Source: Isoetes taiwanensis
Lineage: Eukaryota > Streptophyta > Lycopodiopsida > Isoetales > Isoetaceae
Length of the DNA: 64,000 nt
Direction of reading: 5' to 3'
Assembly (NCBI GenBank): GCA_021234155.1
Contig: JAJEKV010000031.1
Coordinates: 14,377,748 to 14,441,747 of the forward strand
Of the stretch, positions 761-25,855 are shown piece by piece. The notes beneath the pieces are model-generated. The model was not told the DNA's origin. It did no database searches and saw only the letters and a list, made by a program, of their open reading frames with translations. Numbering within the stretch: position 1 is the first letter of the stretch; every line of letters starts with the position of its first letter. Position numbers and translations under genes: made by a program.

Positions 761-3700
761 ATTGGGTCTAAACCTTCGACATTCTCGCCTACGCCGCCAG
801 CTTTGTCTCCCCTCGCCCTCGCCGCCTTTACCGCTTCCATTTGTCTTCCTCCCCTTGAAATGCTCATGAAGTGTATCCGTGTATGACCAAATGGTTTCAA
901 CCATGTCCTTATTTCCAACCACGGATATAGGTTTCATTCCAAACAAAGATAGCCCCCCGAGAGAACAGCCATTCATGTACCACTGCGATACAATTTGATC
1001 TTCCCACCAAGCAAGTTATGAAGTACTTGATAACTCTTTACCGGATAGGAATTCTATGTATAGGACCTGTCGCACCATCTTTGGTGACTTTTGTCCATAG
1101 ATGGAACATCCTCCATAAATCTTGCCCCCCCTCTAGGGTTCCATCTGCTTTGAGAGATCATGAACCCGCCGAGATAATGATGTTCGCTAGACCACCACTT
1201 ATCCGTGTCTACAGCCGATCTTGAAATCAAAACCAAAACTATATTGGCAAAGCTTGTGCCTTCGCAAGCCAAGTCTACACTCATGATCAAGTTCAGATAT
1301 GGAGTACATGATCTTGTTGGTGAAGTTAATATCACCGCCCATTGGGAGACAAAGAGCTTGTCCGATTGTCTTAAGATGCAAAAGACAAGGAAACCGAAAA
1401 GTATCTAGGTCGGTCATGTCCGTGACACGCCTTGTACCACCGCTCTATGTCAGCCTTTGTCATAAAAAAAGGGTGGGGTCTTCGATCATATTGATGGCAA
1501 ATAGTGCCACGGGTCCAGTGCCCTGCACCACCAAATCCCTTTGTGTCCCAAAGTTACCGTAAATGGGGAGCTATCGCCACCCTTTAAATGGGACCACCGA
1601 ATCCAAGCTTCCTCTTCAATTGCCATAGCACGCTCAGTGGAAAGGAAAGGTTTTAACGCTACGCTTCAGCTTGGTGTTGATGTAGGGTTGACATAGACTG
1701 TTCAATTCCTTCATGTCTTCCTCATCAAGGGCAACCTTTTCCTTGTAATAATCAAAATCATGGTATTCATTAGATGCAACGCTGCGTAACTCCGTGATGC
1801 CTTCTTCTAACGCACGCCGCCTCTTTAGGACCGCGGGCATAATCCTTTGCGCCCCGCATTTTAGAACTCCTAGTCTTCCTTAGCAGATTGTTCCATCCAA
1901 GATTCTCGCCTTTGTAGGTCAAGCGCTTTGTCCGGTGAGGCCCTCAGATCCTCTTCATGAACCGCTTGTCGAACAACTTGGGGTCCGCCCGATGGAAATT
2001 CTCCATTGTTGTCCTTCAGCCTTGCCTCTTGTCCATTGAGCCCATATCTCAGCCCATTTCTCCCAGCACCGCCTCAGGCTAAGAATGAGGTCATATTGGT
2101 CCGAGAGAGACTCCTCGCCTTTCCTTGGTGTTCTTTCTTCTCCTCTTCATCCTCTCCCCATCATCTTCCTCGCCCCCAAAGCAAGAACATATCCCGCATA
2201 GTTTCTCAAAGGTCTTCCACTTATCCAAGGGAGCCCCTCGTTTCCTATAGGACACCGAGGACAACCCAATGCTTTCCACCGCTGCCTAGCGTAGTATGAT
2301 CCGTCGATAAGGGTCGCGATTCAACCAATGTACCAATGTCGAGCATGAAAGTATCTACAAACACCAAATAAACAAAGAATAGTAGTTCGGTTTCTCGACC
2401 TTCATGAGAAAGTTCCTTGAATGTCTAATTTTTTTTACTTTCTTTTTCGACTCGAAAGTCGAGAAAGCTCTGCATCCTTTTGATTTTCTCAGGAATTTGG
2501 CTTTCTCGACCGGGCGAGTCGAGAAAACCCCGATAACCCAAGCGTCGAGAAAACCCCAGCTGATAATCGGAAAATGTTAGATGGTGGCTTTCGACCGCGA
2601 GTCGAAAATGGAAAAGAATCGTAGAGTTATTTACCTTACGTGAAGCCGCACTCGCCGCTATTGTGTTCTCGCAAAGGGCTACGCCGCCGGCCGGTTGTCG
2701 GGCGCTCTCCACCGAAAGAACTCTCGCGACTCTCACTTGGCATATCCATCCTGGTCCTTTAAGCACCTCCTTTCCTCCGGTCGCAATACTTGGCGCCGCC
2801 ATCAATGCCGACCGCCCACTACCCGTAACCGGACGCTTTTTCCTTCGTGTCTTCCTCGACTTCCAAATGAACAACCGACCGGCCGACCGCTAAAAGGTAT
2901 GACATCCGCAGCATTGATCTCGCAATGTGATGTCGCACCATCAGTTCGTAATCTCCCAAGATGTGTGCCGGATTAAATTCCCTCGTGGGTTGAACAAGAC
3001 GCATCTCCCCGCGGCACCTTCAGCGCCCTCGATGTCCAAGAGCAAACTTTGTGTGCTATTCCCAACAGATAATACCGGAGCCCCCGCCCCATTTTCTCAG
3101 GCTCCCTCTCTCGGAAATCCCCGACCGCTTCATCCGATCCATTAGTTGGGAGTCGCACCATATCTTCGCCTCCTTCATCATCCGATTCCTCCCGCAGTGG
3201 TGTCATCTTCTCCATCTTTGGTCTTGTCCGACTTTTTTCTCAGATGAACCACAACTTCCCTCCCCACCGCAGAGTGTTGTAGAGTCTTCAAAGACAAAGA
3301 AGTGAAGCTCCCTCGTGAAACGGGGCTTTTCCCCCGACTGAAATCTCCATTCCAAGCTCCCCGGATGTTAGGGTTCCGCCTCCTTCATCCCTTCCGCATC
3401 CTTCCACCCAAGGTTCCCACAATTTAAAGGCATGCCTTCCTTTTTTCTTCGTGCCTTTCCCTTTTGCTCATGGAAGAGTGAGAATAATTTGAAACTGAAA
3501 ATTTTTTGGTGTGATAGAACTTACTTTCCGGGCAGTCCCTCGACATGTAGTGTTAAATGCTTCAACCGGGCACCGACTCCGAGAGCACAACACCGATTTT
3601 CTTGTACTTGTCTCCTCGAGCTCTTTTTGTCCCTTTGGTGGAGAAACAAATCTTTCCTTCCCACTTGTTGATACCTCGACATACCACCAAGAATCTGGCC

Positions 3701-3918
3701 GTGTGTCAAGAAGCTCGCTCCAGCCCCTCGATGACTAAGAACGGAGTTCGCCAAGGATCACTAGTGAGTCCGCGGTGAATGCCGCAAGAAGAAAGGATGG
3801 ATCAGCTTAAGGTATTCCTGACCAAAGAAAACCCTCGAAGCTCACCCGAGGAGCCCGTTTTTTTTCTTTTGCCGCCGAACCAAAGATCCCTCCGCACTCG
3901 CTTTGACGGAGTCGCCAT
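761..3918 (-). pseudogene. Degraded copy of the unknown minus-strand gene of block X
   Basis: This is the X counterpart of the gene at 22193-25386 and is read on the minus strand from an ATG at 3918-3916. Only short pieces remain open, for example the segment at 1840-1634 that corresponds to the helical segment ending near 23050 in X', and the C-terminal piece near 976-590. Many small indels and substitutions separate it from X', mostly where the other copy has CTG, CAG or similar triplets, so some of the apparent decay may be sequence error. I do not recognise the protein family. The left end of the gene runs directly into the LTR at 760. Confidence 0.5.
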
Positions 3919-4039
3919 GTCCCAGATGCCCCCTCATCTTCTTCCCCGCCAACCCTTCAGAATTAAGTTTCCTCCGCGGGTTGATCGTTTTTAGGACCGC
4001 ATGTAAAAAGATCGGGGTGTTCTTTTAATTTGAATTTAA

Positions 4040-4110
4040 GGACATGCAATCATTTAAGAAAAAAGCGGGCTAAGGGTACAAAGACGGCCGCCTTTTAGCC
4101 CGCCTAAACA
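4040..4110. other. Hairpin between divergent ORFs (copy X)
   Basis: GCGGGCTAA and TTAGCCCGC form an inverted repeat separated by about 20 bases, following a run of A. The same hairpin occurs at 25532-25573 in X'. It lies between the start of the minus-strand gene (3918) and the plus-strand ORF that ends at 4735. It could be a promoter element or a terminator-like stem; nothing in the sequence decides this. Confidence 0.5.
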
Positions 4111-4379
4111 CTATTTCAAATTGAATCACATCAAGGGACTTAGTGAGCGGAGCGAAGTTTATCTTCACATGCGCATTGGGCGACCTTGGAGTTCGAGGCG
4201 AAGCATCGAATCGTAGTTTAATTTCCGAATGGCGCCGCGACGCCGTAAGTCGCTAACAAATACTTTGCTTTGTGTGTTTTTCCCGACCGCCCCTATTGCG
4301 CGCTGATTTGATCGATGAGCACGGAGCTAAGGTAGGAAGTGGAGAGGAGCTGCCGCATTACCTGAACTCTACACCGCCA

Positions 4380-4735
4380 GCGCCCATGGAACGGGATACG
4401 CCGAGAATCGCAGCAGGATACAAGTATTACATGAGAATACACTCTTGATGAGACCGACGTAAGAAGCAAAAGACTCTAGGTGAGGCTGCGATCCGCGGAT
4501 ACAAAGGGCTCCAAGGAATTACCGCTGAAGAGGTGAGTTTCAGAGATGCCTATGTTATTTCGCTTGTAGAACATGCCGCCCCGTGGTTAAATAATGGAAC
4601 CGCCGATAAGCTCGACGGATTCATCGCTTCCCTTGTCCAGCATTTTTCAGCTTCTCGAGATGATTTACTCGGGTTGAGAGATGCTCTCGGCAAGGAAACA
4701 ATGCATCGGGGTAAAGAAATGCCCGCTTTTTAGGT
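4380..4735 (+). pseudogene. Unknown plus-strand ORF of block X
   Basis: A reading begins around the ATG in CCATGGAACGGG (4385) and ends in an open stretch at 4533-4733, followed by TAG. The open part reads like a helical, soluble protein and contains LVEHAAPWLNNG and ASRDDLLGLRDALG. The X' copy at 25856-26207 carries the same segments in shifted frames, so a single original frame is likely but neither copy preserves it fully. It is transcribed away from the minus-strand gene, with about 470 bp between their starts. No family recognised. Confidence 0.35.
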
Positions 4736-4789
4736 GTATTTTTTCATGGAATGTTTTCTTAGAATGTTGTACATAGATCAGGCTAGGTC

Positions 4790-5830
4790 TAAGGCCCGTG
4801 AGATGCGGTTCAAATGCATCCTCTTGTAGTTAGTCGAGGGGCTCTCCACTCAGCCGGAACCACCTCTTTCGCAATATTCGAGGAAGATGGTTCAAGGAGA
4901 GTGGCTCGCATAAAAGCTAGAGGCACTTGGGACTAAAACATGAGAATACAAAGTGCAAGAGTTGTAGAGAATGCAAGCCTTGGCTTCCTCTCGGGTTTCC
5001 CCGCGGTTGTTGGGAGGCCTCCACCCACCGGAGCCCCTCCCTTCGCAATATTCGGATTAAGATGGTTCAAGGAGAGTGACTCGACCGGTCGAGGCCACCG
5101 CTACCATACAATGTGAGAATTGGTCGGTTAAGGGTTTCTCACTGGCGAAGTCGAGAATGCGATCGTTATTTTCTCGTTTACATTTTCACCGCAAGTCGAA
5201 ATGCCTTGGCCATCCGTAACTCCTGATAGTACACATGGAGTGCCGTTGTTAAGGCATTCCCACTCACAGCCGAATGCGCATGCAAGAAGCTCGCGGGTTT
5301 CCCCGCGGGTTAGTTGTAGAGGCCTCCACCCGCAGCGGCCCCCCCCTTCGATATTCGCCGAAGACGGTTCGGGCGAGAGTGGTCGACCGGTAGAGGCCAC
5401 CGCGGTAACAATACGTGAGAATTGGTCGGTTAAAGGATTCTCGACGAAAGCGAAGTCGAATGCGACGTTGGTTTTCCTTCACATTTTCCCTCTCCGCAAG
5501 TCGAGAATGCCTTTAGCCATCGAGAACTCCTCGATGGTACACATGGAGTGCCAAGTAGTAAGGCATTCCCCACTCACGCAGCCGAATGCATACAAACAGC
5601 CTCCGCGGGCGCCCTCGCGGTTAGTTGTAGAGGCCTCCACCCGCCGAGAGCCCATCCCTTCGCAATATTCTACGGTAAGATGGTTCGAAGGAGACGGTTC
5701 TTTGATTGTAGAGGCCATCAGCGACTCACACACGAGAATTAAGGTTGGTCGCAGATAAATAAAACCACTTCCTTCGCGAATCTCGGTGAAGATAGTTTGA
5801 AGGAGTAGCGGAAGCAGATCGGCTCGCAGC
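4790..5830. repeat. Foldback and palindrome array, degraded copy
   Basis: Repeats contain GCCTCCACCC, then CTTCGCAATATTCG, then GATGGTTCAAGGAGA, then the complement of the first arm. They occur near 4838-4920, 5020-5100, 5310-5400 and 5618-5720. Decayed TCTCGAC/GTCGAGA palindromes lie between them. This is the X counterpart of 26312-27424, where the arms pair much better. Short open frames here are by-products of the repeat and do not look like genes. Confidence 0.6.
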
Positions 5831-5904
5831 CGCGCCTCTAGAGTGCACTAGAGCTTCCGCGCTTTCAACTCGCCGTGCTCTAAGAAAGCGCCAGCACCTC
5901 TATG

Positions 5905-6992
5905 GTGGCTGAAGTCGCCGCAGGAAGCGAGGCCACTCTTCTTGTTCACAAAATATTTAGCCGTCCATAGCTTTCACTTGATACGCCTTGCTCTGGATCG
6001 GGTTCGAAGTGAGGCTCGGATAGTTCCTAATCACATGGCTGACAGAATGGCAAAGGGATTCCGCCAAAGGCCGAGGACACAGTCGAAGGACAACCACTAT
6101 CCCGTCTCTCATACTCTTGAGGTCGATATGGCTTAGCAATGATTGTATTTTACTGGCGTTATGATAGCACTTATGGCCGAGATGCGTCTATGTCCGGTGT
6201 TGTGTTTGCCATAGTCTGGAATTGCTCATAAACCTGTCGACCTTTTTCACCATTATAGGCTTCCCCTTTTGTGGTGCATTTTGGATGAGGAGTCCAGGCA
6301 TCTTTCGACCCTTTCGTTTCCTCAAGCGAACTTGAACTTCAAGCTGGAAGGCGAGAACACCAAGAACATTGACCAATATTTTTCTTTGCCATACAAGACC
6401 ATATGCCCACTTGAATCCCGTTCTAGGCACCATTCATGGAATTTCCTTAACTCACAGGCCTCGGATACACTATTTTATGCTGGGTTTGTTCCGGGATCTG
6501 CGAGATTAATTCAGGGGATACATACTATCGTGGTACTGCATTCTAATACTCCATTGTGATCAAAATATTACAAGCTTGGCGGGACCAGGTTGGATCGGTT
6601 GGAGTTTGGCTCACGACCATATTTCGGTTCATGGGATCCATCGAGGGATCATTATCTTTTTCGAGGTCCTTTAAAGGCATTGGCGTTGTCTTGCTCTGGA
6701 TTGTCTTTTTGATTGCATTCTCCTCCTGCGGCTTGATGAACAGCCGGTATCAAGTGACAATGATCGAATTGATTGACATGGAACTCCACGAAATGACATC
6801 TGTCAAAAGGAAAGCGAAGTTTTTCTGAGCTTCAGCGAGGAATGAAAAGGTATTGAAAGGAAGCGAGTTTTCGACTTCATGAGTCGAAACACCGGTATAG
6901 AACAAAAGTAAACCCACCTCAATCTCCCGGGGACTCAAGAATGTATTGGTGACATTCTTGTGGCGTTCCTGACCTGATATCACGGTCAGGCG
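5905..6992. other. Spacer Y between block X and LTR 1; no recognisable gene
   Basis: Similarity to X' stops near 5905 (the corresponding point in X' is near 27100). The rest, up to the LTR start at 6993, has short open stretches on both strands (for example 6269-6559 plus) but no family I recognise. One TCTCGAC-class palindrome with a TTCATGA-type centre lies at about 6867-6890, linking this spacer to the palindromes of X and X'. Confidence 0.4.
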
Positions 6993-7717
6993 TGTTATCA
7001 TGCTTTGCCAATCATCATTACCGCCATCAGAATCGGTAGCATGCGGCGGCCTTTATAGCCAAATTAGGTATACAGGGGGGCAACTTGCTAAAATGTGCAT
7101 TAGCGTGTGTGCACATTTACTAATATACACATTAATGTGGGCACACATTTCCATATGGACACCTTATGCCAGTACCATAGGTAGGTGCAATTAATGTGCA
7201 CATTCTCCAATGTGCACATTCATTAATGTGCACACATTTCCATGTGGGCACATTTTGCCACCTAACCATTAATGGCAAGTGGGCCCATTCCCAATTATCC
7301 CACATGCCAAAGGGGATAATTGGAAACCCTAACCAACCCCCATGTTCATTTAGGAGGGGAACCCTAACTTGCCCAATTTCGTTTCTAGGGCTTTAGAACT
7401 CTGTTTTGGGTGCCTCAAGAGCCAAAACCGCCTCCCCCACTCTGCTAGGAAGGCTGGGACCCTTAGTTTCCCTTGGTTCGAAAGGTTTGGGATGGTCGAG
7501 AGGCTCAGTCGAGGGAGGAGTCCTCAAAGGATCGGTATTTAGGCAATTTAATAGCTTAAACCCTCTTTTAGTCATAAAATCGGTAGGTTTAGCCTATTAA
7601 ATTGCCCATAACAACTGCTTCTAGATCTCTAGGTATCAGACTCTAAACTAAAGAACCTAACTCTATGATATAGATTAGATCTTGTTCTTTAGTTCTCTTT
7701 ATGATGTATGTGGAGGA
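6993..7717 (+). mobile_element. Ty3/gypsy LTR 1, truncated at the integrase junction
   Basis: It starts TGTTATCATGC, equivalent to TGTGGCGTATC at 9364. It aligns with the first 720 bases of LTR 2, including the AATGTGCACATT-rich tract and the block ending TGATGTATGTGGAGGA. At TGGAGGA (7711-7717) it switches to integrase sequence. LTR 2 continues GGAGGATGTATC and the internal region at 18910 reads TGGAGGACATG, so the junction lies in a short stretch shared by both parents. The remaining 870 bases of LTR and all of gag-pol before that point are missing. Confidence 0.8.
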
Positions 7718-8494
7718 CATGCTACTGAAACTATATACGGAATAAGCAAGGTATGTGGGAAGAATTTATTCACTTGGTCGAAGTTTGCATACAATAGCAC
7801 CAAGCAGAATCATCCCAAATGTCGCCGTTTATGATCAATTCACGGCTATCAATGCCTAACTCAGGACACTTGGCACAATCCTGTGTCAAAAGTAGAAGTC
7901 TCCACGGCACATGTTGGCCAATATCACCCAGCTCGTGGAAGAAGTGCGAGGATATCTCCCTAGCGACAAGGGAGTCGGTAAGAGCATCGCCCGACAAGCA
8001 TCGAACGATCGAGAGTTCGGGTTGGCGCGACAATGTGTGGCTCAAGATCCAAGGTGAAGCGGTGGCTCGGGGATCGGGAATTGCAAGAAGCTTGCTCCAG
8101 GGGTGGGCTGGACCTTTCAAGATAATCAAGAGAATAGGTAATCAATCCCTCTGAGTTAGATCTACCAAGACACCTAAAGATTCATAAGGTCTTCCACGTC
8201 GGTTTGTTGAAAAGCACACTCCAAATCTGGGCGAAGTCTTGGACACTCAACGTTGTTGGAAATGGCCGGGAGGAGCTGGAAATAGTTCGAAATTGATTCT
8301 TGATAAAGCTTTCAAGAAAACAAGGAGATCGAGTTTCTCAATATTTGGTCAAGTGGAAGCTTGCCGATGGAAAACCCATGACGTGGGTACTTAAGAAGGA
8401 TCTATTAAAGCGGTACCCACAATTCATGGAGCAATGGGGCGGCAAGGTCATCTCAGAAGAAATCGGCTCGGGCATGTCGATTGGTGTAGATTAA
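7711..8494 (+). pseudogene. Integrase C-terminal part and chromodomain, truncated element
   Basis: It matches 18910-19697 closely. It begins in the integrase core, passes through the GPFKII segment of the integrase C-terminal domain (about 8110), and ends with a chromodomain reading QYLVKWK at 8337-8360 and a stop at 8492-8494. The chromodomain frame 8300-8494 is open; the rest is frameshifted. This is the stump of a second element whose 5' part was deleted. It has no chance of activity because gag, protease, RT and RNase H are absent. Confidence 0.8.
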
Positions 8495-9363
8495 TTCTAT
8501 GTGTAGTTAAGAATAATCTAATGCAACCTATGCTAGGTATGGATTGCATGCGTTGTTACGAAATGATGAGACCGCTCGGCGATCTCTAGAGCGTGGTGTA
8601 ATGTCGATGTAGGCATGATCGCGTTTAAAACTTGGAAGAGTGGAAGGTAGATTAGAAAAGTCTATACGTTCCCGCGGAAGTAGAGCGACCTCGAAGAAAG
8701 GAGGACATGGAAGGATGCATTCATAGGAAAAGCACCTCTAGACCCATATATATGCTTTGATGGGAGGAATCGGCCTTCCGCCCCCATACCTGAAGGACCT
8801 ATCCTCCACTGGGCAACTAGGGTGTAGGCATGAGAGGCATATGCATTTTAGGCGTTGTCTCCTCGGCCATTATGGAAGATTCATCCTCTTCCTAATGGGA
8901 GATTAGCCATGCATCCATGTAGATAGGTGGGGTGGTCACCATATAACCAAAATTTTATTAATAATTAAATGGTACTAACGTGAGTAAATGACCACAGGGC
9001 CAATAGAGCACTCGGAGGGCAAGGAGGTCGAAACTCTGAAGACTTGCAACACAAATTTTGTTGGAATGTGTTGCAAGGAATCAAGAGTACCTAGGATGTT
9101 AATTTGAATTTTTGATAAACTTAATTGCCATGATAAGTGAATTATTGAGTAACTTTGTTTTAATGATGTTGTGAATTGATAAGTGATTTCATAATATAAT
9201 CATGTAATAATGTTCTAAAAAATATTACCTTAAGGTAATGTTAATAAATGTGTAAATGATATAGTAGTATATTGTATGTATCGTGGTGATTGCAGGTTAG
9301 GAAGTTCCCAAGGTGGGGAGACCCACGATCTTTGCTTTACGACATCAATTCAAGAGGGGAGAA
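8495..9363 (+). other. 3' untranslated region and polypurine tract of the truncated element
   Basis: This non-coding stretch follows the chromodomain stop and is nearly identical to 19698-20569, including AT-rich parts that match base for base over long runs. It ends in the purine run CAAGAGGGGAGAA at 9351-9363, directly before the LTR start at 9364, as expected of a plus-strand priming site. The counterpart purine run is at 20555-20569. Confidence 0.75.
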
Positions 9364-10953
9364 TGTGGCGTATCATGCTTTGCGCCACGCCGCCACTACG
9401 CCATCCTCAACGACGTCTGTGCACCGACGCGCGCCAAGTGGGTAGCCCTAGGGGGCCAACTTGCTAGAAATGTGCATTGGCATTAATGTGCACATTTACC
9501 AATATACACATTAATGTGGGCACACATTTCCATATGGACACCTTATGCCAAGTGGGCCATACCCATAGGTGCAATTAATGTGCACATTCTCCATTTTGTG
9601 CACACATTTCCATGTGGGCACATTTTGCCACCCAGCCATTAATGGCAAGTAGGCCCATTCCCAATTATCCCACATGCCAAAGGGGATAATGGAAACCCTA
9701 ACCAAATCCCCATGTCTATTTAGGAGGGAAACCCTAACTTGCCCAATTTCGTTTCTAGGGCTTTAACTCTGTTTTTGGCTGCCTCAAGAGCCAAAACCGC
9801 CTCCCGAACTTCTGTGGAGAGAACTGGACCCTTAGTTTCCCTTGGTTCGAGCGTTTCAGCAGGATGGTCGAGCTCAGGTCAGGAGGAGTCCCTCAAGGAT
9901 CAGGTATTTAGGCAATTTAATAGCTTAAACCCTCTTTTAGTCATAAAATCAGTAGGTTTAGCCTATTAAATTGCCCATAGCAGCCTTCTAGATCTCTAGG
10001 TATCAGACTCTAACTAAAGAACCTAACTCTATGATATAGATTAGATCTTGTTCTTTAGTTCTCTTATGATGTATGTGGAGGATGTATCTCTATGAACTCC
10101 TTGTATTGGGAAGGGGGGTAGAGACCCAAAGCTTGGTAGTGGATGCTCCTAGATTAGCCTCTCTAGCACCATATAGATTAGGCTGTGTACAAGAACCACA
10201 CACAGTTTGTGGGTGAAGGGACCCGGCCGCTAAGAAGGAGGTTCGTGTCCTGACTCTTGAACGATCCCTCTGGTGTGTAAGGCCTACCGGGGATCATTGT
10301 GACTAGGTCTAATGGCTTGCCACTGGGTTCACTTTCCATTGGGTTCCAGTCGAATAAGAGCAGTGGCTCTCTAGTCTCCTTGAGTCAGCATGTAGATCTC
10401 TGGAGGGAGTGATCCCTGCCTGCCCCATCGGACCTGGGGAGATGTAACCCAGGAATAGCCCTTTCGGCTATGCATCCGGCGGGCTACAGTCAAGTCCCAA
10501 CACTTTTCAACCTACTCTGCAAAGTGTGCACAGGAGGGGCGGATGGAGTGGACTACCCATTGCCATGTTCTTATGCCAGCCAAATCCATTGTCATGAATT
10601 CTGTCTGCAATGAACTCTGGAGACCCAAGCTTGTCAATCCATCCCTGTGTCTGAGCCTTGGGTAGGATTCCCTATATGCATTGTCTTGATCATTGTCTAT
10701 CACAGATGTGATGTACCACCCTACGGGTGGGTATGTGATGCTTTGTATCTTGGCGTGTATGTTTACGCTTCCGCAGCTAGGTAGGCCCTGAGGGAGACGG
10801 GGTAAATGACCCCTTCACTCTTCCCACTGGAACCCGTCTCGGTTGCAGTGTCATGTGGAGGGCCCTGTATCGGCATGCATGGCGGTGGTATGGGGAGAAC
10901 TCACGTTTGTATCACGGTGGGTGTACCGTGATATCACAGTAGAAGGCGTCACG
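9364..10953 (+). repeat. Ty3/gypsy LTR 2 (5' LTR of the central element)
   Basis: It starts TGTGGCG after the purine run and ends near CGTCACG at 10953, just before the primer-binding site. It is about 1590 bases and aligns along its whole length with LTR 3 (20570-22192). LTR 3 has the cleaner termini TGTGACG and CGTCACA, a 7-bp terminal inverted repeat. Most differences between the two LTRs sit at CNG-like triplets. Confidence 0.85.
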
Positions 10954-10954
10954 A

Positions 10955-10965
10955 TGGTATCGAGC
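10955..10965 (+). promoter_or_regulatory. Primer-binding site (initiator tRNA-Met type)
   Basis: TGGTATCGAGC follows the 5' LTR by one base. The usual PBS complementary to initiator tRNA-Met is TGGTATCAGAGC; here one base is missing in the middle. Its position defines the LTR end and the element's orientation. Confidence 0.8.
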
Positions 10966-11153: not shown

Positions 11154-11425
11154 GGTCTCACCGCGTCGGCGCCGGGGACGAGGAAATGAGATTTTCATTT
11201 TCGGGTTGGAATTTAGCGTGTGAGACAATAAACAAACACACCAAAAAGTTGTAAATTACAAATAAAAATAGCTTGATAAATCTAAATTAGAGCTAAAAAT
11301 CGATTAGAATTAGCATGTTATATGTTCCAAAAGTACAAAATTTAGTAGTGGGTCCCACCATGTCTCACCGCGTCGCCGGGGACGGAAATGACTTTCTCAT
11401 TTTGGGCTGGGCAAACGTGAGACCT
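11154..11425 (+). promoter_or_regulatory. Pair of 70-bp palindromic modules upstream of the H3-like ORF
   Basis: Two copies start at 11155 and 11362 with GTCTCACCGCGTCG, continue with CCGGGGACG, then AATGAGA and TCTCATTTT-type arms, and end in CGTGAGAC or GTGTGAGAC. The outer ends GTCTCAC and GTGAGAC are inverted repeats, and the centre is a second inverted repeat. The same pair occurs at 13004 and 13204 before gag. The spacing within pairs is about 200 bp. They probably act as promoter or enhancer elements, since a TATA box follows each pair. Confidence 0.65.
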
Positions 11426-11496: not shown

Positions 11497-11504
11497 TATA
11501 AATA
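11497..11504 (+). promoter_or_regulatory. TATA box of the H3-like unit
   Basis: CCTATAAATAGACC lies about 106 bases upstream of the ATG at 11603/11606 and about 70 bases after the second palindromic module. A matching CTATAAATAGG lies at 13451 before gag. Confidence 0.55.
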
Positions 11505-11602: not shown

Positions 11603-12873
11603 ATGATGGCCCGCACAAAACGGACTGCTTTCGGAAGCATCGTGGGGCCGAATCCTCCAACGCCATTGGATTACGGCATCTTTTGGAGAATCCTTCAAAA
11701 CGCCTTTTCGGAAGGCGAATCTTCTTCGGCGAAGATGCGAGATCGGATCGGAAAGCCACCACGTAGATCATAAACGGCAGCCATCCGGACATCATGCATC
11801 AAATCCTAGAGGAGATCGCAGGGGAGGAGGAGAGGACCGAGGAGCAAAGGGATCGCAGGGGCAGCCACAGCCGAGGAGCAACACCGGTGGAGACCCACAC
11901 GCCAGGAGGAGCAAGGGAGAGAAGAGTGCGGCCCATTGAAGCTCACCCCGATGAAGAAGCCGATCTTGCATGCTTCATCGGCAAGTATGAAGCCAAAGAG
12001 TGCACGGAGCGCGGAAGGGCCGAGCGGGAAGACGACCGACCACGGCCCGGCGGGCCAAAGAAGAGAAAGGCCAAAGCCATCAAAAGGCAGGCGGGAAAGT
12101 TGTGAAGGTCGGCAGGCGGGCGGTGGAGGGCCATCAACGAACCAACAGCGAAAGCAGGGACCAGCCCTCTAAACTGACTTCGGGACGAGATTACGTCCCC
12201 AACCCGAGGGGGCGAAGTCTTCAAAACCCCCGCCCGTGGAGAAGGGAGGTACCCGGCGGTGTGGCACCGAGGAAGATCGGTCAGGGCGGAACACGAAGCC
12301 CCCACCTTTTCCAACGTGGGATAGGGGTTAAAGCCCCGCGACCACCCGGGGGGCGTGCGTGATGGGCCCGGTCAAGGTCTATCGAGAAGAAGATCAAGGA
12401 GCTGCTTGGCGTGCATGGTGAAGTGGGAGGCATACAATGCCTACTATCCCGGGGAACACGGGGGTAAGAACAATCGAAGGCGGACATCCATTAAAGAAGT
12501 CAACAACGAAGCCATAGCCACCCGGGCCCCAAGCCTCCCAGAGCACCAGGGAAGAAGCGGAGCAAGAAGAAGAAGTTGGAAGACAGAGCTCTCAAGGAGA
12601 TCCGCCACTTCCGAAGAGTTTCTGGACTCTTGATCCCGGCGCCGTTCCAACGCTTGGTTCGTGAAGTCATGCGGGGAATACAACACGGACATCGCGAAAG
12701 TAACCGGAAATGTTGTTGTGCCTACGGGGAGGCGTGAGAGGCAAAAAAGTCTGCAGCATTTTGAAGATTCAACGGCCTGCACGATTACGCATGAAGAGGG
12801 TTACCCTCATGAGGCGGGATATGTATCTTGCCGGGCACATCAAGGGAGAAGCGGCCTTGAAACCTTTTTGTAA
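11603..12873 (+). pseudogene. Histone H3-like (possibly CENH3-like) ORF inside the chromovirus, frameshifted
   Basis: The N-terminus at 11606 reads MARTKRTA, close to the canonical H3 start MARTKQTA. A charged Glu/Arg/Lys-rich tail follows (11794-12600). The histone-fold part starts at about 12591 with ALKEIRHFRR, then LLIPAPFQRLVREV (12630-12666), matching alpha-N/alpha-1 of H3 (ALREIRKYQ, then PFQRLVREI). After frameshifts, HFEDSTACT (about 12757-12783) corresponds to the H3 FEDTNLC segment. KRVTLMRRD and LAGHIKGE (12796-12850) correspond to KRVTIMPKD and LARRIRGE. TLMRRD resembles CENH3 (TLMRKD) more than canonical H3. A possible polyadenylation signal AATAAA lies at about 12913. At least two frame changes break it. 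The alternative, chance similarity, is unlikely given three colinear H3 blocks. Confidence 0.7.
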
Positions 12874-13003
12874 ATAATGAACATTTTTGCTAATATAAAA
12901 ATTTTTGTGTAAATAAAGTGCGGATCTTGTTTAAATAAGTTAAGATATCGATTTCTAGCTTTTGTTTTAGTTAAATTGGAGCTTTGAGCAAAATTGAGGC
13001 GAT

Positions 13004-13451: not shown

Positions 13452-13459
13452 TATAAATA
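13452..13459 (+). promoter_or_regulatory. TATA box upstream of gag
   Basis: TTCTATAAATAGGTCC lies about 125 bases before the ATG at 13577. With the paired modules upstream it gives gag a promoter-like region of its own, separate from the LTR. Confidence 0.5.
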
Positions 13460-13576: not shown

Positions 13577-15119
13577 ATGGCCCGCTGCTGACTTGACCCG
13601 GATGGTGCCTTGCCGATGCCCATCTTCTTGAGGCGGATGTCAACGACATCTTCCGAGTCTTCGAGAAGGAATTAGATGTGCAAGCTACTTTAAATGCAAA
13701 CCCGACATATAGACAAGTCCTAGCGAGTTCCAAGCTAGGGTAGGACCCTCCCTTGTCCAGGTCCCCCCTTGCATAGGCTATTTTGTCCCCGCCCATCCCT
13801 TCAAGCAGCCTTGGAGGATGTCCCCAACATCGCCAAGTACCTAACCAACAAAGCGCAAAGGCTGCCAGGACTACATGGTCCCGACGTGCCAACAGGACCA
13901 AGTACTTCTCCTACACCGGCCTTAGCCATTTTCTTATCCCACCAATAAAAACCCAATGGGGCAACCTCTATCCCTCCAGATGGAGGTGGACCCCATAGCG
14001 TTGAGGGAAGAAGAGCAGATCGTCTGCAATATCAACAAGAGCGGGAAAGGAGAAGACGAAGAAGAAGAGGAGTCCGACAATAAGTACACCGGGAGCTCGA
14101 CTCGAGGAGGAGGAACGGCAACAAGCGAGCGGGGAGATGGCCAACTTTAAGCGAGCCCGTGAGAACATCGGGATTGCTCCCCCCCTTTCGGGCTAGGCAT
14201 CACAAGCCTAGCCCCAATCATCATCAGCGGGAGAGGAGTATCTACTCCTCGGCGACATCGAAACCTTCCCGAGTGCGGAGGAGAGGGGCTTCAGTTGGAC
14301 GAACTACTCCACCCGGCCTTCGGCCGGTCAGGACTTGGGCGACTTCATCGTCAGGGGAGCCCTCAGGACTTTCCGCTCCAAGTGAGAAAGCCGACACTTA
14401 CGGGGAGAGTGGACTTGAGACATCCAGCCCTACAGCGGCAGCATCGGGCAAATGATGGGCCGCAAGAGCTGCCAGCAGAGGAGGAGTTCCTCCGCCCTCC
14501 AGGAGCAGGAGATGGGGATCAGGTGGGAAGACCACAAGCATTTTAATGTCGAGGCCTTCGACACCACCTCCATCAAGAGGGAGGCGGGGAATGAGACCTC
14601 AGGGCGAAGTCGACTCCCAATTGAAGACTACAGGGACCTCACCCGAAATAGAAGTCGAAACGAATCTGGCGGGAGGCACAAAGGAGGAGGCCAAACAAGC
14701 CGGAGAGGCCGGCGGCACAATGCCAGTCCCCGAGGTACTACACGCCGCTAGATGGGAGAATAGCGGTAATCCACATAAGTTCAGCCCCCGTGAGGTGAAG
14801 AAGAAGTGTTCATGCTGATTGCACTCTCGGGCTTGGCGAGCATGCTCGCATATAAGCGCCAAATGTCGACTCTGCCGTCACTGGTCAAGAGGGCAATGGC
14901 ACTTGACCTCTTCGACTTAGCCATACCCCATCGGCGTCGGCGAGATTGGTGATCACCGCCACCCTTACATCCGACGCGGGGTGGAAGAGCTGGTGAGAGC
15001 CTTGAAGTGGCTTTCGTCGGCAAAGCGTCATCGGGAACTTGGGTCATTAGGTAGGAGCGGCCCAAGTTAAGAAATTCCTTGAGGACAACCCGCTTATCGG
15101 CGATTTCAAGATTAGTTAG
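13577..15119 (+). pseudogene. gag-like ORF of the chromovirus, frameshifted
   Basis: The proposed start at 13577 (ATGGCCCGC) follows the TATA box. Helical segments typical of Gag can be read in pieces: DAHLLEADVNDIFRVFEKEL at about 13615-13675, AALEDVPNIAKYL near 13810, an acidic patch (EDEEEEESD) near 14060, and a C-terminus ending FLEDNPLIGDFKIS then TAG at 15117-15119. The frame changes several times. There is no zinc knuckle in this part; that lies after the spacer. Assignment to gag rests mainly on position and composition, not on a named motif. Confidence 0.5.
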
Positions 15120-15270: not shown

Positions 15271-16640
15271 CCATGAATTACTTGTGGATGCGACTAGAGG
15301 CCTAGGCTCGGGGAGAACAACAACGCCGAGACATCATGGAAGAACAGACCCGCTTAGACCACCTCAGGCAAGGAACCTATTTGAAGAAATGGAACCCATG
15401 ATTCCGGAGGAGGAGATATCCCGCATGAGGGCCGGACCTTGAGCGGATAAAGGCTCTGCTTCTAGCGGCCTGGCGAGAGCGGGTTCGGTGGGCAACGCTC
15501 AATTGCCACAAGCATCAGCTCGGAAAACAGGAAGGGACAAGAAGAGAAGCAAGAGAAGGAGATCCCCCAGTTCAGATTCCTCCGACTCAAGCTCAGACTC
15601 AGACTCCGACTCAGGAAGAGGAAGAACAGGCTGGGACCAACAGGATGGAAGGCAAAGGGACAAAGAAGGAAGGCAAGCCCGGAAAGTTATATTGAAGGGC
15701 TTTGAGCGATGAGATTACTTAAAGTTGGTGAGGGCAATAAACCCTAAGACAAGATCGGCCCGCGCCCAGCGGCGGGGTGCAAGGCTATAAGCTTGCAAGG
15801 AACGGGACCTCGAGAATAGCGGGCGAGGCGGCGGCCGGTTTTTCGGGACAAAGGCAAAGCATCGGGGGAGCTATAGCCCTAGAAGCGACAAAGGCCGTGT
15901 CCAATGGCGATAGAGCCCCATATGGTGGCAATCGAGGGAAGCCCCATGAGCGAGAAGAAGCGGTGTTCTTCAAGGACAAGCGGGAGGGATCAAACTACTC
16001 CAAAGCGGTGCGATCCTTTTACAAGGCTATGCCCAAGGAAAAAGGCGAGGAGTGCATGGAGAAAAAAGCTTTGCTTGGATGCTTCGGCCCGGGCCATAGA
16101 AACGGCCCAATTGCCCCTATGTCATGAGTGCGGCACTAAGCAGGTGGGAGATTGGGACATCACATGGCGATGGCGAGCCGAAGTAGCCCGAGACTACATT
16201 GAGGGGTGAGTGTCATATCTTTGCCGCAATAGATACTGAGAACAAGCGGAGTCAATACAAGGTAATTTCCACGGTAGGAAGGCCAAGGCCAAGTCTTTCA
16301 TAGTCCCGATAGATTCGAGAAGTAGCCATAACTTTAAGTCCCAAGAATGGTGCAAATGTTGAAGTTGAAACCGCTGAAGTCGGCCGAGACCCGTTGTTTT
16401 AGCAAGTGGAAGCGGAGCAAAGAAGGCGCAAGCAAGAGGATCAATTTCGACATCGAATTGCCGAGGAATAAACATCCGGATAGGGGGCAAGTAATGGGCA
16501 TTGGCAAGTATAACTTGATCATAGGAATGGAGTACCTTGGGCCGGCGGGGCCATCATTGATTGTGGAAAGCGGAAAGTGACCTTCCCAACGCACGGCAAG
16601 ATTATTGAGATCTCGGGTAAGGAAGTTGTTCCCATCATGC
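15271..16640 (+). pseudogene. Nucleocapsid and aspartic protease region
   Basis: A basic, serine-rich, RS-like tract (SKRRRSPSSDSSDSSSDSD) occupies about 15553-15610. A Cys/His segment around 16070-16130 (C-F-G-x-G-H-R, then C-H-E-C in another frame) looks like a CCHC zinc knuckle split by a frameshift. The stretch 16450-16640 with VMGIGKYNLIIGMEYLGPAG is the second half of a retroviral-type aspartic protease (the IIGM-D/E-YL block). The catalytic DTG-type motif is not readable in the present frames. Confidence 0.6.
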
Positions 16641-16899
16641 AAAGTGTATGTCTTCTAAACGGCTGTTCAAGTCAATCAAGAACAAGCGGTAGCATACATC
16701 TTCAAGCTTGAGATCGAAGAGCCGGTCCGAAGAAAGCAAAGAAGACAAGGTGCTCGACAAGTTGCTTAAAGCAAATAGCTAACTTGATCACGGAATTCCA
16801 TGATCTCTTTCACGATGAGATCGAGCACCTCCCTCCTTACGGGGAGTCGAGTCGCGAGATAGCACTTTCGAACAGGAACAGAAGCCCACAAGTAAGGCT

Positions 16900-17640
16900 C
16901 CATACGAATGGCGGCGAGGAATTGTGAGCTAAAGAAGCAATTGTAGGAGTTGCTCGACCTAGGCTTTATTAGACCTAGTGTCTACCGCCATTTGGGCGCC
17001 CATCCTTTTGTCAAGAAGAAGGATGGCGGTTTGAGGATGTGCATAGACTATAGGCGGTTGAACAAGCACACCATCAAAAACAAGTATCGCGCTTCCCGTG
17101 GTCGGATGACTTGATGGATCAGCTTCAAGGAGCAAAGGTCTTCTCAAAAATCGATTTAAGGTCGAGGGATATCATCAGATCCGGATAAAGGAAGAAGATA
17201 TTCATAAGACCGCTTTCGGGCCGCATGGACATTATGAGTTCCGCGGTAATGCCTTTTCGGCTTATCGAGCGCTCCAAAGAACGTTCATGAGGCTCATGAG
17301 CGATATCTTCGAGGAGTTCTTAGACACCTTTGTGATAGTGTTCTTTGATGACATTTTGGTGTATAGCAGATCCCTTGAAGAGCATGTACAACACTTAAGG
17401 AGGGTGCTCGAAAAGTTGAAGAGGCACCGGTTATGCGCCAAGTTGTCGAAGTGTCGCCACCATAGCGGAAAAGGTGGAATATCTTGGTCACGTGATATCG
17501 GTGAAGGAATTTCGGCCGGACCCTTTCAAGATTGAAGCCGTCATTCGATTGGCGGCACCAAGAATGTGCATGAGGTCAAGTTTCCTCGGCCTAGCGGGGT
17601 ACTCTGAGGAAGTTCGTGAAGAACTTTGCTAAGATAGCGG
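16900..17640 (+). pseudogene. Reverse transcriptase domain
   Basis: Successive RT blocks of the Ty3/gypsy type can be read: [16 protein letters not shown] near 16970, the CIDYR-type block near 17040, KIDL near 17150, and the catalytic block DTFVIVFFDDILVYS at 17325-17367 (F-x-DD in place of the usual Y-x-DD, common in plant Ty3 elements). Then VEYLGHVIS follows in another frame near 17475. Several frameshifts and stops make it non-functional as read. Confidence 0.8.
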
Positions 17641-17822
17641 CCCGCTAACGGACTTTGGACGAGGGCGGAAAAAAAGTGAAAGATTGGGTAGATCATTGGC
17701 ACAAGAAAGCCCAAAGGGGTTTGAACTGTTGAAGGAAGCCTTAACAACCCCCGTCTTAACCACCGGACCGAGAGAGAAAGATAAGCTTGTAGCAACATGG
17801 GAGTAAGATAGCTATAGGTGCA

Positions 17823-18398
17823 GTGCTCATGCAAGAAGAGCGTGTAGTAGCGTACGACTCCAGGAAGATGAACGACGCCGAAACGCGCTACCCCACGCAT
17901 GATCAAGAGCTACTTGCGGTTGTCAGGGCATTAAAAATTTGGAGGCATTACCTTTTGGGAAGAAAGTTCCAATTGGATACAGATCATCAGAGCCTCCAGT
18001 ATGTATTTACGCAACCACACCTCAACCTGAGGCAGAGAAGGTGGATGGAGTTCCTTGAAGAGTATGACTTTGATATAGTCTACAAGCCAGGGAAGCTCAA
18101 TGTGGTAGCGGATGCGCTTTCAAGGCATCCCCTGACAACTAGAGTGCATTGCAATGCAATTTCGACGCTTTCCAGTGACTTCGGGAAGAAGATCGAAGAA
18201 TCCTTGCCAACAGATGTCGACTTCAAGGAAGTTTGGGCAAGTTTATGTAGAGAAGCAAGAACAGATAAGGAGCGGGAAGCCTTCAAAAATTTTAAGAAGG
18301 AAGGTAACCTATTATATCATAAGAACAAGTTGTGTGTGCCAGAATCTTCAGGAGTAAGGAAGTTGATCCTCCATGACACACACAATCCAATCCAATAG
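17823..18398 (+). pseudogene. RNase H domain and start of integrase
   Basis: This 191-codon open stretch is the best preserved part of pol. It contains VVAYDSRKMNDAETRYPTHD and ELLAVVRALKIWRHYL, the RNase H core of Ty3/gypsy elements, then DHQSLQYVFTQPHLNLRQRRW and the KPGKLNVVADALSRHP linker that precedes integrase. The catalytic Asp before this stretch falls outside the open frame. The 3' end leads into the zinc-binding part of integrase. Confidence 0.85.
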
Positions 18399-19697
18399 CC
18401 GCCATCGCGGGATTCATGAAAATATATTTCAAAGTCTGCAGCTATTATTATTGGCCAGGGAATGAAGAAGCGGATAATGCTACATCAAGGAATGTCGGCT
18501 TTGTCGACAAACGAAGCGCGAAACGAGCTTAAATTCGGGGGAGCTTTGGAGCCCTTAGCGGTGCCAAGCGCTAAGTGGGAGGTCATCGGCATGGATTTCA
18601 TCCACGGGGCTTCCAAGGGCGGTAAGAGGGAAGGATGCTTTGATGGTAGTAGTCGACAAGTTGTCAAAAATGGCACATTTAGGTGCCTTGCGGGACTCTG
18701 ATACTGACTATGGATACAACAAAGCTCTTCACCAAAGAGATCTTGAGACTTCATGGTATGCCAAGGGAGATTATCTCCGAAGCGAGGGATCCGAAGTTCA
18801 TGGCCTTTTGGCAAGACCTCTTTCGCGACCATTGGACGAAGTTATCCATGAAACCGCAGCATATCATCCTCGGGGCGGATGGCCAAAGCGGAGGCGGACC
18901 AACAAATTTTGGAGGACATGCTACGAAACTATGTCTGGAATAAGCAAGGTATGTGGGAAGAATTTATTCACTTGAATGAGTTTGCATACAATAGCACCAA
19001 GCGAGGAATCATCCCAAATGTCGCCGTTTATGATCAATTCACGGCTATCAATGCCTAACTCATTAACTTGGCACAATCACATGTCAAAAGTAGAAGTCTC
19101 CACGGCACATGTTGGCCAATATCACGGCGGCTTCGTGGAAGAAGTGCGAGGATATCTCCTAGCGACAAGGAGTCGGCGAGAAGAGCATCGCCGACAAGCA
19201 TCGAACGGTCGAGAGAGTTGAAGTTGGCGACAATGTGTGGCTCAAGATCAAGGTGAAGCGGTGGCTCGGGATCGGGAATTGCAAGAAGCTTGCTCCGAGG
19301 TGGGCTGGACCTTTCAAGATAATCAAGAGAATAGGTAATCAATCCTACAGATTGGATCTACCAACACACCTAAAGATTCATAAGGTCTTCCACGTCAGTT
19401 TGTTGAAGAAGCACACTCCAAATCCAGACGAAGTCTTGGACACTCCAACGTTGTTGGAAATGACGGAGGAGGAGCTGGAAATAGTTCGAAATTGATTCTT
19501 GATAAAGCTTTCAAGAAAAAACAAGGAGATCGAGAGTTTCTCCAATATTTGGTCAAGTGGAAGCACTTGCCGGGAAGAAACCGGCGTGGGTACTTAAGAA
19601 GGATCTATTAAAGCAGTACCCACAATTCATGGAGCAATGGGACGGCAAGGTCATCTCCGAAGAAATCGGCTCAGGCATGTCGATTGGTGTAGATTAA
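18399..19697 (+). pseudogene. Integrase and C-terminal chromodomain
   Basis: Integrase core pieces are readable in changing frames: EVIGMDFIHG near 18580, PREIISEARDPKFMAFWQDLF near 18760, and the GADGQSGG segment near 18870. The C-terminal domain has [19 protein letters not shown] near 19310 and [14 protein letters not shown] near 19375. A chromodomain follows (LVKWK near 19550, then VLKKDLLKQYPQF) with its stop at 19695-19697. The chromodomain places the element among chromoviruses. The truncated copy at 7711-8494 has the same end. Confidence 0.85.
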
Positions 19698-20569
19698 TTC
19701 TATGTGTAGTTAAGAATAATCTACGCATGCAACCTATGCTAGGTATGGATTGCATGCGTTGTTACCGATGATGAGACCGCTACGGCGATCTCTAGGGCGT
19801 GGTGTAATGTCGATGTAGGCATGACCGCGTTTCCGCTTGGAAGAGTGGAAGGTAGATTAGAAAAGTCTACTTACGTTCCCGCGAGTAGAGCGCGACCTCG
19901 AAGAAAGGAGGACATGGAAGGATGCATTCATAGGAAAAGCACCTCTAGACCCATATATGCTTTGATAGGAGGAATCTGGCCTTCACGCCCCCATACGGGA
20001 AGGACCTATCCTCCACGCTGGGCAACTAGGGTGTAGGCATGAGAGGCATATAGGCATTTAGGCGCTGTCTCCTCGGCCATTATGGAAGATTCATCCTCTT
20101 CCTACGCTGGGAGATTAGCCATGCATCCATGTAGATAGGTGGGGTGGTCACCATATAACCAAAATTTTATTAATAATTAAATGGTACTAACGTAGTGTCG
20201 ACCTGCAGGCCAATAGAGCGCTCTGGAGGGCAAGGAGGTCGAGCTACGAAGACTTGCAACACAAATTTTGTTGGAATGTGTTGCAAGGAATCAAGAGTAC
20301 CTCGGATGTTAATTTGAATTTTGATAAACTTAATTGCCATGATAAGTGAATTATTGAGTAACCTGTTTTAATGATGTTGTGAATTGATAAGTGATTTCAT
20401 AATATAATCATGTAATAATGTTCTAAAAATATTACCTTAAGGTAATGTTAATAAATGTGTAAATGATATAGTAGTATATTGTATGTATCAGGGTGATTGC
20501 AGGTTAGGAAGTTCCCAAGGTGGGGAGACCCACGATGCTGCGGACAGCATCAATTCAAGAGGGGGAGAA
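19698..20569 (+). other. 3' untranslated region and polypurine tract of the central element
   Basis: Non-coding sequence between the chromodomain stop and the 3' LTR. It is nearly identical to 8495-9363. The purine tract CAAGAGGGGGAGAA at 20555-20569 ends directly before TGTGACG at 20570. Confidence 0.8.
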
Positions 20570-22192
20570 TGTGACGTATACTGTACTGCCCCGTCACGCG
20601 TACACGCCATCCCGACTGACGCGTACGCCGACGCATAGCCAAGTGGGTAGCCCTAGGGGGCAACTTGCTAGAAATGTGCATTGGCATTAATGTGCACATT
20701 TACCAATATACACATTAATGTGGGCACACATTTCCATATGGACACCTTATGCCAAGTGGGCCATACCCATAGGTGCAATTAATGTGCACATTCATTAATG
20801 TGCACACATTTCCATGTGGGCACATTTTGCCACCTAGCCATTAATGGCAAGTAGGCCCATTCCCAATTATCCCACATGCCAAAAGGGGATAATTGGAAAC
20901 CCTAACCAACCCCCATGTCTATTTAGGAGGGGAAACCCTAACTTGCCCAATTTCGTTTCTAGGGCTTTAGAACTCTGTTTTGGCTGCCTCAAGAGCCAAA
21001 ACCGCCTCCCAGACTCTGCCGGAGAGAACTGGACCCTTAGTTTCCCTTGGTTCGAGCGTTTCAGCAGGATGGTCGAGCTCAGGTCAGGAGGAGTCCCTCA
21101 AGGATCAGGTATTTAGACAATTTAATAGCTTAAACCCTCTTTTAGTTATAAAATCAGTAGGTTTAGCCTATTAAATTGCCCATAGCAGCCTTCTAGATCT
21201 CTAGGTATCAGACTCTAACTAAAGAACCTAACTCTATGATATAGATTAGATCTTGTTCTTTAGTTCTCTTATGATGTATGTGGAGGATGTATCTCTATGA
21301 ACTCCTTGTATTGGGAAGGGGGGTAGAGACCCAAAGCTTGGTAGTGGATGCTCCTAGATTAGCCTCTCTAGCACCATATAGATTCGGCATGTGTACAAGA
21401 ACCACACACACAGTTGTGGGTGAAGGGACCAGGGCCGGCTAAGAAGGAGGTTAGTGTCACGACTCTTGAACGATCCCTCTGGTGTGTAAGGCCTACCGGG
21501 GATCATTGTGACTAGGTCTAATGGCTTGCCACTGAGTGTGGGCAAGGCATGGGCTCGACACCCGTGAAGTGGGGTTCACTTTCCATTGGGTTCCAGTCGA
21601 ATAAGAGCAGTGGCTCTCTAGTCTCCTTGAGTCAGCATGTAGATCTCTGGAGGGAGTGATCCCTGCCTGCCCCATCGGACCTGGGGAGATGTGACCCAGG
21701 AATAGCCCTTTCGGCTATGCATCCGGCGGGCTACAGTCAAGTCTCAACACTTTTCAACCTACTCTGCAAAGTGTGCACAGGAGGGGCGGATGGAGTGGAC
21801 TACCCATTGCCATGTTCTTATGCCAGCCAAATCCATTGTCATGAATTAAATGCGCAATGAACTCACGGAGACCCAAGCTTGTCGGTCCATCCCATTGTAT
21901 GCGAGCCTTGGGTAGGATTCCCTATATGCATTGTCTTGATCATTGTCTATCACGGATGTGATGTACCACCCTACGGTGGGTATGTGATACTTTGTATCTT
22001 GGCGTGTATGTTTACGCTTCCAGCCTAGGTAGGCCACGAGGGAGGCGGGGTAAATGACCCCTTCACTCTTCCCTTTGGAACCCGACTCGGTTGCGGTGTC
22101 ATGTGGAGGGCCCCCAGATCGGCATGGCGGTATGGGGAGAACCCCATGTTTGTATCACGGTGGGTGCACGTATCACAGTAGGGGACGTCACA
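20570..22192 (+). repeat. Ty3/gypsy LTR 3 (3' LTR of the central element)
   Basis: It is 1623 bases, starts TGTGACGTATACTG and ends GGGGACGTCACA, giving a 7-bp terminal inverted repeat. It aligns with LTR 2 throughout. Immediately after it comes block X', the same sequence that follows the LTR end at 760. Confidence 0.9.
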
Positions 22193-25386: not shown

Positions 25387-25855
25387 GTCTGTATGCCCCC
25401 TCATCTTCTTCCTGCTCGAACCCTTCTGTAAATTAAGTTTCCTCCGTGGGTTGATCGTTTTAGGACTGCATGTAAAAAAGATCGGGCGTGTTCTTTAATT
25501 TGAATTTAAGGACATGCAATCATTTAAGAAAAAAAGCGGGCTAAGGGTACAGCACGGTCGCCTTTAGCCCGCCCAAACACTATTTCGAAATTGAATCACA
25601 TCAAGGGACTTAGTGAGCGGAGCGTAGTTTATCTTCAACTGCGGCATTGGCGACCTTGAGTTCGAGGCCGACATCGACCGTAGCGACTTCGGAATGGCGC
25701 CCGCGACGCCGGTAGCGTTGCTAACAAATTTTGCTTTGTGTGTTTTTCCTGACCGGCGTCCTATTGCAAGCGGTTGATTTGATCGATGAGCACGAGCTAA
25801 GGTAGGAAGTGGAGAGGAGCTGCCGGACCGCGGGAACTCTACACCGCTTTGCGCC
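25387..25855. promoter_or_regulatory. Divergent intergenic region with hairpin, block X'
   Basis: This region of about 470 bases separates the minus-strand start (25386) from a plus-strand ATG (25856). It contains a run of A followed by GCGGGCTAA and TTTAGCCCGC arms (25532-25573) around a loop of about 18 bases. It is the X' counterpart of the hairpin near 4040-4110. It probably serves as a shared promoter, but no TATA box is evident. Confidence 0.35.

Follow-up and report, generated by a model that had tools for sequence, protein, structure and literature searches.

The 64,000-nucleotide stretch of Isoetes taiwanensis DNA analysed here (the window) contains a degenerate histone H3-like gene borne by a Ty3/gypsy chromovirus (Table 1). 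The element is enclosed by a pair of long terminal repeats (LTRs) whose ends were set by eye, since the sequence upstream of the 5′ LTR is also duplicated, and the 5′ LTR is followed by a primer-binding site (PBS) that we take to be of the initiator-Met tRNA type. An H3-bearing open reading frame (ORF1) and a second extra open reading frame (ORF2) lie between the PBS and the gag region, and the polyprotein downstream is, like ORF1, split over several frames. Pieces of the reverse transcriptase, RNase H and integrase C-terminus were identified by Pfam, whereas the chromodomain was recognised by motif only, the single piece scanned in the window (19506–19694) giving no Pfam match; no gag or protease family was found in the window pieces scanned by Pfam. 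Searched against the protein database, the RNase H piece returned 2,828 relatives, and among the 120 listed is one from the fern Adiantum nelumboides.

Table 1. Features of the H3-bearing element in the window (positions are those of the window).
Feature	Position	Strand	Remarks
5′ LTR (TGTAATGTC ... GGCGTCACGA)	8597..10954	+	Pairs with 19803–22192, 93.9% identity without gaps
Primer-binding site, degenerate, presumably initiator-Met type (TGGTATCGAGC)	10955..10965	+	Directly 3′ of LTR end
Two promoter-side boxes CACCGCGTCG.. (11159, 11366)	11159..11425	+	Recur before ORF2 at 13008 and 13208; blastn of both leaders E 4e-16
TATAAATA box upstream of H3 ORF	11497..11504	+	Upstream in 35/40 copies
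H3-bearing ORF (ORF1), broken here; a long charged linker joins an H3-type N-terminus to a C-terminal H3 fold	11603..12874	+	Fully open relatives 411–439 aa, 7/40
N-terminus MARTKRTA	11606..11629	+	Fully open relatives (7/7) have MARTKQTARKP
Histone H3 fold from alphaN to the C-terminus, broken by four frameshifts and an in-frame TGA	12588..12858	+	Open in 31/40 copies
Second TATAAATA box, before ORF2	13452..13459	+	Leader comparison
ORF2, second extra ORF, broken; 3′ end approximate	13577..15050	+	Open in L005 and L007 to end of stretch taken
Gag and protease region, broken	15300..17100	+	Limits estimated from the order in L072 and from motifs, among them YNLIIGMEYLG around 16.5 kb
Reverse transcriptase piece	17110..17532	+	PF00078, 1.3e-12
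RNase H piece	17793..18395	+	PF17917, 1.4e-31
Integrase C-terminal SH3-like domain	19163..19492	+	PF24626, 3.6e-24
Chromodomain, broken across frames (..FLQYLVKWKHLPG..)	19500..19697	+	Motif
3′ LTR	19803..22192	+	Pair of 8597–10954

Repeats of the flank and of the integrase end indicate that the element copies sit in a duplicated region. The sequence directly upstream of the 5′ LTR (7711–8596) is the integrase end of an adjoining copy and resembles 18910–19802, while the flank at 730–5425 recurs at 22194–26918 (about 85%), each copy lying next to an LTR; these flank repeats represent the segmental or tandem duplication of a region with element copies in it. An LTR fragment (7076–7717) is joined straight to the integrase end 7711–8596 of another copy. 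Frames of 259 and 270 aa on the minus strand of the right flank copy (22194–26918) have no Pfam match, and local repeats at 26284–27380 include many CGACTCGCGAGTCGAG-like palindromes and repeated units with TTCGCAATATTCGA and GATGGTTCGAAGGAGAG. Elsewhere in the window we observed a POT/PTR2 transporter gene fragment on the minus strand (33311–33745, 3.9e-28), an endonuclease-like frame at 46314–47306 (PF03372, 2.8e-4, below the cut-off) within what is perhaps a LINE-like element at 44000–49000, and a Ycf66 piece in an AT-rich stretch (59515–59994; PF07444, 6.4e-16), which is perhaps an insert of chloroplast DNA in the nuclear genome and is in keeping with a seed-free plant.

The initial annotation had read the region 11603–12873 as blocks of histone H3 scattered over three frames, and all of these blocks were found, in the order it gave. 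Pfam Histone matches the single-frame piece 12495–12734 with an E-value of 9.3e-6, 0.1 bit below the curated cut-off, but none of the seven other single-frame pieces of the ORF1 region; read through its lesions, the H3 domain of the window copy matches the same profile at 8.9e-11 and H3 in the PDB at 1.2e-14, so that the histone profile check is significant. A frameshift-aware alignment of plant H3 (hand-entered query) with the ORF1 region scored 134; the highest score was 53 among 60 dinucleotide shuffles and 46 among the other 1,500-base window pieces, which covered 63 kb per strand. With cheaper frameshifts, the alignment spans 12588–12856, and 41 of 88 aligned residues are identical to H3 across four shifts and one in-frame TGA, all within about 270 bases (best score in other plus-strand pieces, 43). 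The frameshifts of the window copy may stem from errors in sequencing; where the duplicated stretches differ, they do so in clusters. At the N-terminus, the MARTKRTA at 11606 scored 34 against MARTKQTA, the runner-up over the six window frames scoring 20, whereas a 35-residue H3 tail query scored 39 at ORF1 and 41 elsewhere in the window; because this longer query falls below background, only the first eight tail residues are clear in the window copy.

In a neutral-decay simulation of the window copy alone, by which constraint from host time and from element time is not separable, 3 of 148 runs matched or exceeded the excess identity seen at conserved positions. As protein-database queries, the read-through H3 domain and a 423-aa read-through with its H3 part scored yielded 6 and 60 candidates, respectively, none with E ≤ 0.01; ordinary H3 was not returned by either search, and the empty result therefore says only that the index returned no relatives. 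A scan of IMG/VR with the H3 domain confirmed no relative.

To compare the window copy with its family, we searched the 1,658,258,908-base assembly (1,110 contigs) with the window H3 DNA and obtained 1,414 first-look candidates, 40 of which were scored; these are the copies most like the window rather than a random sample. A match with E < 1e-88 and 86–100% identity (100% being the window itself) was present at every one of the 40 scored sites. The proposal that the element carries an H3-family gene between its PBS and gag is thus borne out, both by the Pfam Histone match and by the occurrence of the gene at the same place in 40/40 sites. Seen within the window, where only one copy lies, the segment could pass for a histone pseudogene nested once in a single element; its presence at a further 39 scored sites spread over many contigs, together with a DNA match to the H3-type start MARTK upstream of the fold in 33 of the 40, refutes that reading. 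By pattern, the H3 fold is open in all but nine copies, the window among the nine, although two of the folds counted as open (L035 and L038) contain local out-of-frame stretches and a third (L040) has an extra codon.

Seven of the 40 copies run in a single frame from MART to the stop, and all seven begin MARTKQTARKP, where the host H3 genes of the same genome begin MARTKQTARKS. Their first ten residues, MARTKQTARK, are those of the host H3 tail and are separated from the fold by a linker of roughly 300 residues, which, like the stretch just before the fold, contains lysine-rich runs. The open relative L014 matches Pfam Histone at 3.6e-27 over profile positions 8–122 of 122; its best PDB match is H3.3 (8.7e-28), and the best 60 of 174 PDB rows are all H3, with no H4, H2A or H2B among them. 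The linker of all seven fully open copies, L014 for example, also includes a conserved acidic motif, TDDSD[ED]DY[VI]P, which we take to resemble the acidic-aromatic histone-binding motif of chromatin proteins.

Four CACCGCGTCG boxes looked in the window like a promoter module shared by ORF1 and ORF2, a candidate that we rejected; the exact box occurs in 0 of 39 other copies, which leaves its importance unsupported. The distance from the TATAAATA box to the ATG is 107–113 bases in 28 of the 31 copies that have both, the remaining three measuring 82, 93 and 104, and TATAAATAG is found 3′ of the H3 fold in part of the other copies.

The family was also examined for purifying selection, and the pattern is present. 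Since pairs of copies are not independent, the figures given here are descriptions rather than probability tests, and the pN/pS sets were chosen for openness. For the H3 fold, the pairwise pN/pS pooled over 29 equal-length open copies comes to 0.092; counting distinct variants instead gives 0.18 (55.5 synonymous changes on 60.7 sites and 37.5 non-synonymous changes on 230.3 sites). Within the seven fully open ORFs, pN/pS is 0.10 for the first 23 codons, 0.28 for the linker and 0.06 for the H3 fold. When openness is ignored, in a comparison of all 40 copies that still contains the open ones, differences at codon positions 1, 2 and 3 amount to 0.045, 0.037 and 0.099, against 0.129 in the 3′ spacer; the contrast is weaker when only the 9 non-open copies are taken (0.093, 0.099 and 0.145). 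A few active source copies can account for constraint in a large element family.

These data bear on whether the gene is a mere passenger, that is, a captured piece of host H3 that has been copied along without function and whose conservation dates from its time as a host gene. The broken window copy would fit such a history, and there is precedent, in that captured genes are reported by the hundreds from LTR elements of rice and sorghum, and many of those in rice may be pseudogenes (PMC3726574). The differences counted above, however, lie between insertions and hence postdate capture, they are mostly synonymous, and the fold is kept in two element types; we consider the passenger reading very improbable and already largely refuted.

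The second of these element types emerged from a Pfam Histone search of the genome, which gave 8,705 first-look candidates; 150 were scored and all of them lay above the cut-off. The best 15 are ordinary host H3, and of the 135 that come after, the next 15 (L056–L070) have an almost canonical H3 fold placed C-terminally in a longer frame. Six of these frames, analysed in detail, measure 337–474 aa from stop to stop; the three complete ones comprise 434, 453 and 459 aa from the start and begin M[PS]RFKLT, without the ARTKQTARK tail. In one member, L062, Pfam Histone matches at 1.1e-43 over positions 20–122, and no other part passes the Pfam cut-off. The pN/pS of the second type is 0.090 (14 of 15 with an equal-length open fold), compared with 0.039 for host H3 (15 copies). 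The further copy L072 presents, in order, an LTR-like end, a PBS (TGGTATCAGAGCC, at 1201), the H3 frame (1877–3283) and a gag-to-chromodomain frame (3546–8339, with one in-frame stop) in which Pfam identifies Retrotrans_gag (9.8e-15), RVP_2 (2e-11), RVT_1 (7.3e-39), RT_RNaseH (6e-33), Integrase_H2C2 (2.2e-20) and Chromo (PF00385, 6.3e-8). This is the domain order of a Ty3/gypsy chromovirus. The genome contains at least two Ty3/gypsy chromovirus types in which an extra gene upstream of gag carries a complete H3 fold at its C-terminus.

Comparison of the two types also corrected one assignment. L071 has an extra ORF between its H3 frame and gag that L072 lacks, and the ORF2 of the window's family is related to it (blastp 3e-7). 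Given this kinship, the frame at 13577, initially called gag, is instead a second extra ORF, and it has no Pfam match in the open relative L005. ORF2 starts with MATADFSRWY.. or MARPTLQQWY.. (13577–15050, L005, L007 and L071). The motif TGGTATC was not found in the L071 stretch. No relationship was detectable between the parts that precede the H3 fold in the window's family and in the second type, and any function common to both must accordingly rest on the fold. Taken together, the matches at all 40 scored sites, the 31 open folds, the mostly synonymous variation and the existence of a second element type argue for a maintained chromovirus histone gene rather than a one-off pseudogene, and we are close to certain that ORF1 is an H3-family gene that the element maintains.

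Which H3 the gene derives from is less clear-cut. The ending of the fold had been read as a hint of a centromeric H3 (CENH3). A likeness to Arabidopsis CENH3 (hand-entered sequence) is seen in the segments ALKEIRHF, LLIP.A and TLMR, and a tree built on a hand-entered panel, with a long branch and without host CENH3, which was not found, joined the window's family to plant CENH3 in 71 of 100 resamplings; another run with the typed panel and the same long branch did so in 140 of 200. With the typed panel, the second type grouped with H3 in 65 of 100 resamplings, the two element types grouped together in 11, and both grouped with H3 apart from CENH3 in 14. On the other side, the N-terminus is that of canonical H3, as are the best PDB matches described above, and the open copies align to H3 without a gap, their loop 1 being of H3 length and lacking the extra length expected of CENH3. 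TLMR by itself is no proof of CENH3 identity. We did not accept a CENH3 origin, given that the tree has a long branch and a typed panel and that the protein has an H3-type tail and a loop 1 of H3 length; there may have been one capture or two, one of them possibly from CENH3.

Both plant H3 and CENH3 share with the element protein a complete H3 fold, and in the window's family the first ten residues are H3-type. The element protein differs from them in its roughly 300-residue linker or separate N-terminal part, in its location inside a mobile element and, in the window's family, in a diverged loop 1 and alpha2. In the gapless alignment, open copies keep the positions matching H3 R69, R72, R83, C110, H113, R116, T118, D123 and L126, to which we assign, by presumed H3 numbering and roles, contacts with H4, DNA and the second H3. 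The contacts to DNA may differ, since H3 R63-K64-L65 is replaced by P-R-A.

Extra ORFs before gag are already known in plant elements. The rice elements Retrosat2, RIRE3, RIRE8 and FRetro3, LTR retrotransposons as well, also have long LTRs and, upstream of gag-pol, an extra ORF named ORF0; according to the accessible part of the source, searches outside the grasses did not detect ORF0, and no clear function is attached to it, whereas the extra ORF described here carries an H3 fold, and the word "histone" is absent from that paper's main text as available (PMC3485330). Retrosat-2 is placed among the Tekay/Del chromoviruses in the accessible text of a survey of plant Ty3/gypsy elements, whose class eORF-5′F resembles ORF1 as a forward extra ORF in the 5′ part; the conserved domains given there for eORF-5′F are the plant mobile domain, Transposase_28 and Athila ORF-1, no histone cargo is named, and "histone" appears once in the main text (supplementary tables aside), in connection with chromodomains (PMC6317226). 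The chromodomain of the present element, of the VKWKHLP type, resembles that of the group II chromodomain chromoviruses, in which it likewise lies at the C-terminus of the integrase; for these the accessible part of the source reports a tRNA-Met type PBS in one Selaginella element and a chromodomain partner that was not found, and describes no member with a histone (PMC3350952). "Histone" is also absent from the main text of the I. taiwanensis genome paper as available (PMC8566536) and from that of the I. sinensis genome paper. Among the matches listed from the main texts of the open-licence PMC literature, no LTR retrotransposon with a histone gene could be recognised from title or abstract. 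Selfish elements that encode a histone or an H3-tail look-alike do occur among viruses: giant viruses and bracoviruses encode histones, and viral mimics of histone tails exist. The carriers in those cases are DNA viruses or an RNA virus, unlike the LTR retrotransposons described here.

The element seems to have taken on a DNA-packaging protein as its own gene. We propose that a gene of the host H3 family was captured and that ORF1 may be transcribed from its own internal promoter; its product would pair with H4 and enter host nucleosomes as an element-specific H3 variant, the long N-terminal part providing a new, element-specific tail. Such variant nucleosomes could then tether integration complexes, possibly through the integrase chromodomain, or, as an alternative outcome, the chromatin of the element could be kept from silencing. 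Judged from sequence, this explanation as a whole has a probability of roughly 0.55; the window copy is dead and the whole ORF is open in only 7 of the 40 sampled copies, both of which count against it. Nucleosome entry with H4 is the simplest guess as to the way of working, because the fold keeps the positions that contact H4, DNA and H3 and is common to both element types, but we advance it tentatively, at somewhat less than even odds.

The main rival of nucleosome entry is that the H3 tail (A-R-T-K-Q-T-A-R-K, with P for serine 10) and fold act as a decoy outside nucleosomes, occupying silencing enzymes, readers or chaperones so that the element escapes silencing. The identity of the ten N-terminal residues with host H3 in 7/7 fully open copies and the constraint on the first 23 codons would suit such a role, as would the proline that stands in place of serine 10 and would prevent phosphorylation at that site. 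Yet the second type has the H3 fold while its three complete frames lack this tail altogether, and the strongest constraint in the window's family falls on the fold and not on the tail (0.06 versus 0.10), making a tail decoy possible but unlikely.

More improbable is a role confined to the particle or cDNA, in which the protein, being basic, DNA-binding and histone-like, would package or shield RNA or cDNA of the element and leave host chromatin untouched. Internal encoding before gag and the lysine-rich runs in the linker and before the fold are what one might expect of such a protein. H3 without H4 does not wrap DNA, however, and a search of the element revealed no stretch clearly resembling H4, H2A or H2B, the best scores there being 45, 40 and 44, compared with 40, 44 and 48 elsewhere in the window.

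Returning to entry into nucleosomes, its consequences for the element may be considered further. Chromoviruses are thought to read chromatin through the integrase chromodomain, and a chromovirus with a conserved H3 could write the chromatin state that its integrase chromodomain reads. In a more specific and rather unlikely version, the chromoviruses of I. taiwanensis would supply an H3 that their own integrase chromodomain or particles recognise, the variant marking places for insertion or building an unsilenced state. If this were true, the element would both write and read a chromatin mark of its own, and very many element-borne H3 genes (8,705 first-look candidates, 150 scored) would compete with the host H3 pool. 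The H3-bearing chromoviruses are a naturally occurring system in which to test how chromatin is chosen or protected by mobile elements, they are a possible origin of new H3 variants for the host, and they call for caution when histone genes are counted in Isoetes.
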